Below, piece after piece: positions 40,613 through 43,611 of a stretch of 45,928 nt of DNA. The stretch covers positions 1 to 45,928 of the forward strand of contig JASHQI010000188.1 in NCBI GenBank assembly GCA_030037645.1, in the 5' to 3' direction. The stretch is from Xanthobacteraceae bacterium (GTDB lineage Bacteria; Pseudomonadota; Alphaproteobacteria; Rhizobiales; Xanthobacteraceae). The position numbers and the translations under genes were made by a program. Positions within the stretch are counted from its first letter, which is position 1; every line of letters starts with the position of its first letter. The notes beneath the pieces were generated by a model. It made no database searches. It worked only from the letters and a program-made list of their open reading frames with translations, and was not told the origin of the DNA.

Positions 40613-41098
40613 ATGCCCGTCAGGCGATCGCTCACTCTCAGCGACTATCTGCCCTACCTCGTGAACCGGGTGGGCACCATCCTGGCCGACCAGTTCGGCG
40701 CCGAAACGCTGGCGCCGCACGGGTTGAGTATCGCCATGTGGCGGGTGCTGGCGGTCTTGGCTGCGAAGGGCCGCCAGCGTCAGATCGACCTTGCCGATCT
40801 CACCAGCATCGACACGTCGACATTGTCGCGCATCGTCACCAGACTGGTGCGTCTCGGTGTAGCGACGCGCTCGCGATCGGCGAGCAGCAATCGCGAAGTG
40901 GTCGTGGCGCTTTCGCCGAACGGCAGCGCGATGGTCGCGCGTCTCATTCCGCTTGCTTACGATATCGAAGCTGATGCCAGCGCCGGGCTTTCGTCCGAAG
41001 AACTGGCGGTCGTGAAACGCTGTCTGCGCCGCATGTACAGCAATATGAGAAGTCGGAACGCCGCAGCAGGCGCACGGCCGAAGCGAATCGCCGTCTGA
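40613..41098 (+). CDS. MarR-family transcriptional regulator
   Basis: This is a winged-helix regulator of 161 residues. The N-terminal helices contain LSDYLPYLVNRVGTILADQF. The DNA-binding part is RQIDLADLTSIDTSTLSRIV followed by TRLVRLGVATRSRSASSNRE, the wing. The C-terminal helices complete the dimer interface. The start at 40613 (MPVRRSLTLSD) is 27 bp after the inverted repeat. Divergent arrangement with the flavin monooxygenase suggests it represses that gene and itself and responds to the monooxygenase substrate, as is usual in this family. Confidence 0.9.
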   Translation: MPVRRSLTLSDYLPYLVNRVGTILADQFGAETLAPHGLSIAMWRVLAVLAAKGRQRQIDLADLTSIDTSTLSRIVTRLVRLGVATRSRSASSNREVVVALSPNGSAMVARLIPLAYDIEADASAGLSSEELAVVKRCLRRMYSNMRSRNAAAGARPKRIAV

Positions 41099-41162
41099 GC
41101 TTCCAAAACACTCACCACCACAGCTTTTGGCCGCGGCAGCTTGCAGTGGCTTGAGCTCGGCA

Positions 41163-41909
41163 TCATGCGCTTTGCTCCAAAACGCACTGCAAGGGGTGCT
41201 GTTGCTCGCGTGCAAGGTCGAGCACCTCGCTGACCTTGGTGCTTGCGACATCGCAGGAATAGAGTCCACACGTCCCAATGCCATTATTGTGGATCTCAAG
41301 CATGATCCTCTCGGCAGTCTCGTGATCCTTCTCGAATACGCGCTCCAACACGTGAACCACGAACTCCATGGGCGTGTAGTCATCGTTCAACAGCAGCACT
41401 TTGACCTGCACCGCGGCCATTTTCGAGGGATCACGTAGCGCGGTCTCTGCTCGCCGAGACGAAAGCCGATCCGCGTTGCTAATGCCATGACAGATGTAAA
41501 GCGTTGCGTCGTAACGTGTCATCCCCTGTTCTTCCAGGGCCGCCGAAGCCGGGCTGTCTCGCTCTCTCAAAATGGCTACGAGCACATTCGCGACTGTGAC
41601 CTCTCGCCGCGTGGTGGACTGCGCATGGGTCACGGCCCGTTGCACGACGCGCTGAAAGGCGGCCGATGGCTTGGAATTTTCCGACCTCCCGGTCTCGAAC
41701 GTTGTTCGCTCTGAATCGACAAGCGAGACGAGGCTGCGCCGCAACTTTTCGAGATCAACGTGGCAAGCGCGGAGGACCGCTGCGGCTTCCGGATCATCTA
41801 TGAACGCGAGCAACAAATGTTCAAGCGTCGCATATTCATGGTGGCCCGCACCGGCAATGGCAATTGCTCGCTGCAATGACAGCTCAAGGTTTTGGGAAAA
41901 CTTCGGCAT
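41163..41909 (-). CDS. ClpA N-terminal domain fused to ClpS adaptor
   Basis: The 248-residue protein joins two partners that normally meet non-covalently. Residues 1-145 are the double Clp N-domain of ClpA ([34 protein letters not shown], then the second repeat [20 protein letters not shown] and [17 protein letters not shown]). After a linker (146-166), residues 167-248 are a complete Clp[21 protein letters not shown] with NDD at 175-177 and gatekeeper Met181, then ML-IHNNG with His207 and HPLQCVLEQ. These are the residues that bind N-degron amino groups. No AAA+ module or ClpP-docking loop is present. It could be a self-capped or competing adaptor for the N-end rule. A genuine separate clpS-clpA pair would be expected elsewhere. 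Confidence 0.9.
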
Positions 41910-42045
41910 CTCAACTGACCAGGCCGATCATGTCTCGACATTCAGCTCCGTTGCACGTTTGCGCAGCAGCGCGGCCGGATTGTGGACGGCGCAATCCGGG
42001 AAAAGCCTACGAGATACACCCCGGATTTCGCGAACCGCAATCCGG

Positions 42046-43611
42046 CTATTCCACGCTCGTCCCCGCCTTACTGTCCTCGAACACCGAAACCGCCGGCGGC
42101 TTGCCGACAAAACCCAGTTCGCTCCAGCGCGCCACGACTTGATCGTACATCGGTTTGGACAGTTTGGTCCGCTTGGAAAAATCTTTGATGTAGCGAAAAT
42201 CCATGCAGGCGTTGATCAGAGCCTTGGAGCCCCAGGGGCGGATTTCCGGCGGGTTGAGGCTCGGATCGAGGAACGTGCTCCACGTCTCGCGCAGAATGTC
42301 GATCGACTGCGCCGGCCGCGAGCGGGTCGCCATCGCCCACAACACCTGATGCACGTTGGTCGGATCGATGTCGTCGTCAACCACGATGATGTATTTGCCG
42401 AAATAGGCGCCGCCGGTGCATTGCGCGGCGAGCGCCATGACCTGCGGCGCGTGCCCCGGATACATCTGTTTGATCGAAACCACGGTGATGCCCCAGCCGG
42501 CGGCTTCCGGGATCGACCAGACGCCCTGGATGCCCGGCACACCGAGCTTTTGCAGGTCGGCCCAGATCGCCGCCGAACGCAAGGCGGCCCAGAACAGGCC
42601 GGCCTCGTTGGCCGGACCGTCGGCCATCAGCGCGCAGGTCAGCGTCGGATTGTTGCGGAAGCGGACTTTCTCGACGCGCATATACGGCGTCGCGCCGCTC
42701 GGCCGGCCGTAATAGCCGGTGAACTCACCGAATGGGCCCTCGGCGAAAGTCTCATCGGGATAGACAAAACCCTCGAGGATGATTTCGGCGCGCGCCGGCA
42801 GCGGCAGGCCGGTGACATCGCTCTTGAACAGTTCGATCGGCGCGCCATTGATGCCGCCGTAATATTCGTATTCGCTCTCGGTCTTCGGAAAGCTGGTCGC
42901 CGCAACGAGGAACAGCAGCGGATCAATACCGTAAGCCGCCGCGATCGGCATCGGCTTGCCCATCTTCCACCACTTCTCGCGGTCGAGCGTGGCGTCCTTG
43001 CCGGGCGAGGTATAGACGCCGATCTCGCGCGGTCCTTTGATCATCATGCGATAGGTGCCGACATTGATGCGGCCGGTCTCCGGGCATTGCGTCACCACCG
43101 CGTCGCCGGTGCCGAGATAGAGCCCGCCGTCGAGCGGCCACATGCGCTGCGCCGGAAACTTGCGAATGTCGATTGCCTCGCCCACCTCGATGTTCTGGTT
43201 GCAGATCGCCATCTCCGCCGGCACCTCCTTGGGCTTCATCGTCCGCCCCATCCTGCGCTGCAAGGCCTGCACCGCCTTGAGCGGATGATCGACGGGCTGC
43301 TCGCCGATCATCAAGCAGAAGCGCGACAGGTTGCATCCGATCATGTTGTAGAGCGCGCGATGGCCCGGATGCCCCTTGATGTTCTCGAACAGCAAAGCCG
43401 GGCTCGGCTCGCTGCCGGCCAGATAGGTGATGGTGGCGGCTTCGAGATCGGGATCGACCTCGGCGCTGATGCGTTTGAGCTCGCCCATCGCCTCGACCTT
43501 GGCGAGCCATTCGTCGAGGTCGCTCGAATTGGGTCTGCTTCTGGCGGCGGCGGCCTTGGCTTCGTCGCGCGCCGGTTGCTTTTCCGGCGCAACTGATACG
43601 CTCATATCCAT
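42046..43611 (-). CDS. UbiD-family prenylated-FMN decarboxylase
   Basis: This is a 521-residue decarboxylase or carboxylase of the UbiD family, which uses prenylated FMN made by UbiX. Features include SEPSPALLFENIKGHPGHRA, CNQNIEVGEAIDIRKFP, TGRINVGTYRMMIKGPREIG, then EIILEGFVYPDETFAEGPFG and EFTGYYG, the last carrying the catalytic Glu region. Arg and Glu residues of the E-R-E/D network lie in these blocks. The start at 43611 (MDMSVSVAPE) was preferred because the open frame beyond it lies in a dispersed repeat. No ubiX is in the window. Substrates of such non-ubiquinone UbiDs include aromatic and unsaturated acids. Confidence 0.92.
   Translation of the reverse strand: MDMSVSVAPEKQPARDEAKAAAARSRPNSSDLDEWLAKVEAMGELKRISAEVDPDLEAATITYLAGSEPSPALLFENIKGHPGHRALYNMIGCNLSRFCLMIGEQPVDHPLKAVQALQRRMGRTMKPKEVPAEMAICNQNIEVGEAIDIRKFPAQRMWPLDGGLYLGTGDAVVTQCPETGRINVGTYRMMIKGPREIGVYTSPGKDATLDREKWWKMGKPMPIAAAYGIDPLLFLVAATSFPKTESEYEYYGGINGAPIELFKSDVTGLPLPARAEIILEGFVYPDETFAEGPFGEFTGYYGRPSGATPYMRVEKVRFRNNPTLTCALMADGPANEAGLFWAALRSAAIWADLQKLGVPGIQGVWSIPEAAGWGITVVSIKQMYPGHAPQVMALAAQCTGGAYFGKYIIVVDDDIDPTNVHQVLWAMATRSRPAQSIDILRETWSTFLDPSLNPPEIRPWGSKALINACMDFRYIKDFSKRTKLSKPMYDQVVARWSELGFVGKPPAVSVFEDSKAGTSVE

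Follow-up and report, generated by a model that had tools for sequence, protein, structure and literature searches.

A gene in a Xanthobacteraceae genome encodes a 248-residue protein in which a ClpA-type N-domain is joined to a ClpS core, and from which the AAA+ motor is absent. The gene lies at positions 41163-41909 (minus strand) of the window, the whole 45,928-nt stretch of DNA analyzed, which corresponds to the entire contig C279 of a 336-contig genome (90.19% complete, 2.79% contaminated). This architecture is confirmed and lies far beyond chance. The fusion is known from one genome only, with no further example in the other genomes sampled or among the matches in phage, plasmid and viral collections. 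From its sequence features, we propose with a probability of about 0.36 that the protein may be an accessory paralogue that works as a non-delivering sink in the ClpS/ClpAP N-degron pathway.

Architecture and predicted fold of the fusion

The fusion ORF begins with ATG and is contained in a stop-free frame of 254 codons. The protein starts with MPKFS, and the ClpA of the same genome with MPTFS, i.e., at the same start. Residues 1-145 (41475-41909, minus strand) make up the ClpA-type N-domain, with two Clp_N repeats and eight predicted helices. Residues 146-166 (41412-41474, minus strand) form a flexible linker that occupies the place of the free ClpS N-terminal extension, and residues 167-246 (41172-41411, minus strand) form the ClpS core. 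Pfam scored Clp_N at 55.3 bits (cut-off 20.7), in two stretches, and ClpS at 104 bits (cut-off 23) over residues 168-242. The closest solved sequences in the PDB were the E. coli ClpA N-domain (aa 5-143) and Caulobacter ClpS (aa 170-246).

No AAA family was among the four Pfam families matched at E≤1, and the match of the NCBIfam ClpA models was limited to model positions 2-156. The rest of clpA was not found in the window, where the next match had an E value of 1.1. The protein has the N-domain of a ClpA unfoldase, at its whole length, and the core of a ClpS adaptor, but the two AAA+ modules (D1 and D2) of the unfoldase were found neither among the Pfam matches listed nor in the window search; lacking them, it has no hexamer motor.

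The AlphaFold2 model, computed on an alignment (A4) that included 50 repeated copies of the fusion protein, predicts eight helices, the linker and then the ClpS core (mean pLDDT 82.4, pTM 0.66), with pLDDT below 50 for residues 145-161. The top Foldseek matches were ClpA N-domain and ClpS chains, among them the two partners in 1r6o, a solved complex of ClpS with ClpA-N, and the ClpC and ClpB N-domains ranked after them. In the viral fold search, ClpS-like viral proteins came on top and none matched both domains. In the fusion a folded ClpA N-domain precedes the ClpS core, the linker holds one proline (residue 161), and the free N-terminal extension with a proline junction, as in ClpS adaptors, is absent. 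The ORF, the Pfam, NCBIfam and PDB matches and the predicted fold bear out the domain order and the missing motor described in an earlier note on this DNA.

That note had also held that such an order cannot come from a simple deletion. This stands for a single deletion in a clpS-clpA operon, which fails to give it, but a tandem duplication followed by an internal deletion would yield the observed order. In a Mesorhizobium bin (L035, 5872-6579, plus strand) a tandem clpS-clpS precedes clpA, and adaptor genes of the operon can be duplicated.

Distribution and genomic setting

ClpS was found in 19 of 20 genomes of the genus, with a third copy in the window's own genome only. A second frame holding both domains was not found among these 20 genomes, many of which are incomplete bins and for which a subset of the ClpS matches was fetched. 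In protein searches, a full-length match was obtained in one of 296 genomes of the family sample (E≤1e-60), one of 397 of the order sample (1e-57) and one of 385 of the class sample (1e-56), in each case the own genome; these samples and the phylum sample overlap, so that their counts are not additive, and about 4-10 candidates were scored per genome. A fusion whose halves both lie near 45-50% identity could escape the stricter limits. In the phylum sample 70 of 398 genomes matched (1e-42), and the matches listed, the fusion aside, were all to ClpA-N, ending by residue 169 and lying in frames of at least 768 codons. One large genus of the same family gave no match in 265 genomes (1e-57), in a set without a positive control.

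Candidate fusions outside these samples resolved into separate genes. Among at least 80 loci of the genome_contigs collection, most matched query residues 1-246, yet clpS and ClpA-N lay in separate frames in all 80 listed. Thirty-five plasmid records matched; 27 covered at least 80% of the query, each in two pieces and, where annotated, with separate clpA and clpS (by annotation rather than frame by frame). Of 23 matching phage records, the two that covered at least 80% among the matches listed were annotated with separate clpA and clpS. None of 70 viral_contigs loci carried a fusion frame, and the locus there that matched residues 85-246 (L159) is a plain ClpS in a 144-codon frame.

ClpS-like genes that lack a ClpA-N match in their frame are frequent on viral contigs (L130-L194), and large phages of Erwinia, Serratia and Pseudomonas (matches H39-H55) carry them as well. 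Through such genes phages might control the ClpAP of their hosts. Short "viral" contigs (L125-L129) with an enterobacterial clpS-clpA operon are probably host DNA.

The genome encodes three ClpS: one on contig C119, beside an 810-codon clpA frame, a ClpS2-like one on C311, and the fusion, located away from clpA. It also encodes Aat, of the Leu/Phe-tRNA-protein transferase family. With clpS1-clpA, clpS2 and Aat elsewhere in the genome, the fusion is an addition to the N-degron pathway. The check for separate clpS and clpA genes proposed earlier was thus answered in the affirmative, and the locus is neither the only clpS of the genome nor the remnant of a frameshifted clpA, since no further part of clpA was found in the window.

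At least one further AAA-less ClpA-N protein is present in this genome. A 236-residue protein encoded on C60 (L224, G000:C60, 258-965, plus strand) consists of a Glyoxalase_8 segment followed by a ClpA N-domain. A copy on C281 (L088, 1246-1827, plus strand), cut by the contig end, is 92% identical to it, and the two share 801 bp at 93%, upstream sequence included; by this similarity they may be a recent duplicate or a strain variant. Both N-domains retain 4 of 4 ClpS-contact residues. Among the matches listed for 119 family genomes (1e-40), matches of the extent of the C60 protein occurred in the own genome and in G075 only, where the relative (L228) shows 55% identity over residues 1-232 and, by the length of its 229-codon frame, is AAA-less too. 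The remaining listed matches begin at residue 43 or later, mostly in long ClpA-sized frames.

The fusion lies beside ubiD, whose orthologues in seven sister genomes of the genus show 88-94% protein identity. On the other side, marR was matched in five of seven sister loci (63-71%, one match spanning just 28 residues); in G202 it is missing, with a luciferase-like gene directly after ubiD, and in G246 the contig ends before it. At E≤1e-5, none of the seven loci (L217-L222, L196) matched the fusion protein. The ubiD and marR matches of G226 are about 13 bases apart, with almost nothing between them, and other sister loci carry unrelated ORFs beside ubiD towards marR. By reading of their translations, these would include a Rieske-type oxygenase, a MetE-like protein and short-chain dehydrogenases. 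DNA similarity to the sisters ends at 41038-41101 and picks up again at 42046-42074. Because the site varies among the sisters and similarity breaks around the gene, the stretch beside ubiD (41099-42046) is a variable cargo site, and the fusion is its cargo in this genome.

A search for direct repeat pairs of at least 14 nt flanking the gene was negative. The interval from the ubiD stop to the fusion start contains a 27-nt inverted repeat pair (41974-42046, unstranded), seen as two imperfect palindromes of ~25 nt (CGGATT...CAATCCG), which may be the ubiD terminator. The palindrome pattern gave 4 matches (two places, both strands) versus 0.08 expected, and its exact form was confined to own-contig loci among 271 loci. 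A terminator-like hairpin directly 3′ of the fusion stop (41114-41140, minus strand) is not significant (1 found versus 1.4 expected), and no sigma-70-like promoter was found in 41000-42200.

Pocket, interface and constraint

The predicted N-degron pocket comprises Leu173, Leu174, Asn175, Asp176, Asp177, Thr179, Met181, Val184, Met203, Ile206, His207 and Leu240. Of the 11 specificity-pocket positions of Caulobacter ClpS listed in the excerpted text of PMC12493166, 9 are identical and 2 conservatively changed (Leu173 and Ile206). The substrate-binding residues that had been called intact (Asn175-Asp176-Asp177, Met181 and His207) are all present.

According to the same text (PMC12493166, citing Zeth 2002), ClpS Glu82 contacts ClpA Arg86, Lys84 contacts Glu23, and Glu79 contacts Glu28 and Thr81; a Kd of 0.33 μM is reported there for E. 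coli ClpA/ClpS. The corresponding residues of the fusion N-half are Glu25 (E. coli Glu23), Glu30 (Glu28), Ser82 (Thr81) and Arg87 (Arg86), and the site of Ser82 is Thr in 100 of 100 canonical ClpA N-domain rows. The ClpA-docking segment of the ClpS half (residues 220-225; 41235-41252, minus strand) is changed at two of three contacts: Lys225 keeps E. coli Lys84, whereas Asp220 stands at Glu79 (a site that is Glu in all 102 ClpS1 rows and Asp in 15 of the 16 other ClpS rows, in which own ClpS2 is counted twice and one ClpS is viral) and Ser223 at Glu82 (Glu in all 118 rows, 102 ClpS1 and 16 other). The face of the N-half predicted to receive ClpS is almost intact, whereas the face of the ClpS half predicted to dock on ClpA is down one salt bridge.

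The N-half shares 62-64% identity with own ClpA and 45% with the own C60 protein; the ClpS half is 66-68% identical to own ClpS1 and 46% to own ClpS2. By these values the ClpS half is ClpS1-like, and with 67% against 46% the fusion is not a standard ClpS2 form. Canonical ClpA N-domains are far more alike (96% between the own copy and L004), which points to fast evolution of the fusion. Differences from the own genes at codon positions one, two and three were 0.247, 0.193 and 0.593 in the N-half, and 0.286, 0.078 and 0.597 in the ClpS half. Third positions carry most of the change in both halves, the pattern of constrained coding sequence, although this signal is an average and is compatible with recent relaxation.

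Positions conserved in at least 90% of rows were retained in 37 of 44 cases in the ClpS half (102 ClpS1 rows) and in 61 of 83 in the N-half (100 canonical ClpA N-domain rows; 22 lost), counted on unthinned rows, among which are near-identical members of the genus and five enterobacterial rows taken from viral_contigs. Three of the seven near-invariant ClpS positions lost (218, 220 and 223) fall in the docking segment. In the tree, the N-half stands among rows of its own genus and of Xanthobacteraceae/Nitrobacteraceae (fork 80/89, drawn open), but its branch is very long (4.39), hence its placement is unsure; a donor from a far lineage is unsupported. The GC3 of the fusion (0.667) is at the low end of the range of its neighbours (0.659-0.831).

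Possible roles of the fusion

In the non-delivering sink that we propose, the N-domain half would capture free host ClpS1 and keep it off ClpA, and the ClpS half would hold N-degron proteins without handing them over. The ClpS extension must be pulled by ClpA for delivery, and blocking its entry inhibits delivery, in the excerpt of PMC9663308. The ClpS half would be unable to deliver, as it offers the ClpA pore no free extension to pull and presents a weakened face for docking on ClpA. Overall, N-degron turnover would slow down and ClpAP would have more capacity left for other substrates; inhibition by ClpS of the degradation of ssrA substrates is reported in the same excerpt (PMC9663308). The contact residues of the N-half, the pocket positions (nine identical, two conservative), the host pathway genes and the third-position bias speak for the sink, as do the precedent of ClpC2 and the four contact residues retained by the N-domains on C60 and C281. 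Against it, occurrence in one genome offers no cross-species conservation in support of function, and retention of the N-half contact residues is not statistically remarkable when compared with the 73% kept overall. The 22 conserved positions lost from the N-half, the averaged nature of the codon signal and the lack of a sigma-70-like promoter in 41000-42200 count against it too. The sink would also require fusion levels comparable to those of ClpS1. Among the three mechanisms suggested in the earlier note, a substrate-sequestering protein appears to fit best, and the Glu82 to Ser change on the docking face speaks against bridging of ClpA hexamers. Neither the missing extension needed for delivery nor the further AAA-less ClpA-N protein had been mentioned there.

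The main mechanical rival is a self-capped adaptor. Its N-domain would bind the ClpS half of the same chain (in cis) or of another chain arranged head-to-tail (in trans), and the autoinhibited or oligomeric form so produced would open only on displacement by ClpA. Both partners are in one chain, joined by a ~21-residue low-confidence linker; of the contact pairs, Glu23-Lys84 is kept and Glu79/Thr81 shows conservative changes on both sides (Asp220/Ser82). The Glu82-Arg86 salt bridge would, however, be lost in cis (Ser223 opposite Arg87), which is mildly against it, and a pTM of 0.66 gives no confident docking, though it is compatible with docking too. The autoinhibited adaptor suggested earlier was therefore not confirmed and is less likely given the lost salt-bridge partner; we regard self-capping as a doubtful reading. 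A decaying or selectively neutral paralogue, i.e., a role-less chance product of operon duplication and deletion at a variable site, is likewise possible, as there is one example only, but we do not favour it. The single genome, the branch of 4.39, the near-invariant residues lost from both halves (7 of 44 and 22 of 83) and the low GC3 are consistent with decay. A frame that stays stop-free over 254 codons despite 32-37% protein difference from the own genes, far less change at second than at third codon positions in both halves, and pocket residues that are intact or conservative argue against it.

That the fusion is an alternative working adaptor, with its ClpS half docking on ClpA and its N-half widening or changing substrate choice, for instance through a second ClpS brought to the same hexamer, is unlikely. 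The N-degron pocket and Lys84 are kept, and the Glu79 to Asp change may be harmless given its occurrence in most of the other ClpS rows, but Glu82 is lost and the free extension that must enter the pore, as stated in the excerpt of PMC9663308, is missing. It is improbable that the N-half serves as a ligand sponge, binding a natural product aimed at the ClpA N-domain and so protecting ClpA, with the ClpS half as regulator or passenger. Such a protein would share the AAA-less Clp_N logic of ClpC2 (excerpt of PMC10030653), and another AAA-less ClpA-N protein exists in the genome; yet no compound is known here, the fusion has no DNA-binding part, and the retained N-degron pocket would be left unexplained. 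An assembly chimera in a metagenome bin is very improbable. The gene is on a single contig of a draft genome, and the seven sister loci lack any DNA equivalent of ~41.05-42.05 kb, but neither half exceeds 68% identity to any other sequence of the own genome, the flanks are syntenic with the sisters (ubiD in 7 of 7, marR in 5 of 7), and breakpoints would have to coincide with gene ends while the frame remained open.

Plant ClpT1 and ClpT2, which are also Clp accessory proteins, resemble a stand-alone Clp N-domain; they attach to the plastid protease core and are not known to have a ClpS part. By analogy, the logic of the sink is best read as resembling that of mycobacterial ClpC2, described in the excerpt of PMC10030653 as an AAA-less Clp N-domain protein with an extra N-terminal part that sequesters a ClpC1 ligand. 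Like ClpC2, the fusion is an AAA-less Clp N-domain paralogue that coexists with a full unfoldase encoded elsewhere in the genome (excerpt of PMC10030653). The two differ in that ClpC2 carries a dimerising part at its N-terminus and binds a drug as well as its own operator, whereas the fusion starts directly with the N-domain, without a dimerising part, and its second part is ClpS. The layout of the C60-type proteins resembles that of ClpC2, but their partner is Glyoxalase_8 and they have no ClpS.

No described ClpA-N/ClpS fusion was found in the literature searched, mostly without subscription papers and with InterPro architectures outside its scope, and no anti-adaptor of ClpS is named in the titles and abstract openings listed on ClpS, ClpA and N-degrons. 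Both domains and the idea of an AAA-less decoy are already known; the joined architecture is the new element. We suggest, tentatively, that the fusion may be a natural anti-adaptor of the bacterial N-degron pathway, a motor-less chain of receptor and adaptor that would soak up ClpS1 and N-degron substrates and tune ClpAP, and that it may be one case of a wider tactic of this lineage, the copying of the ClpA N-domain into AAA-less proteins. The regulation of ClpS supply is, to our knowledge, little understood. With the adaptor-binding domain of ClpA joined to ClpS and the interface changed on one side, the fusion makes adaptor sequestration directly testable, and it offers a scaffold for asking whether delivery needs a free ClpS extension.
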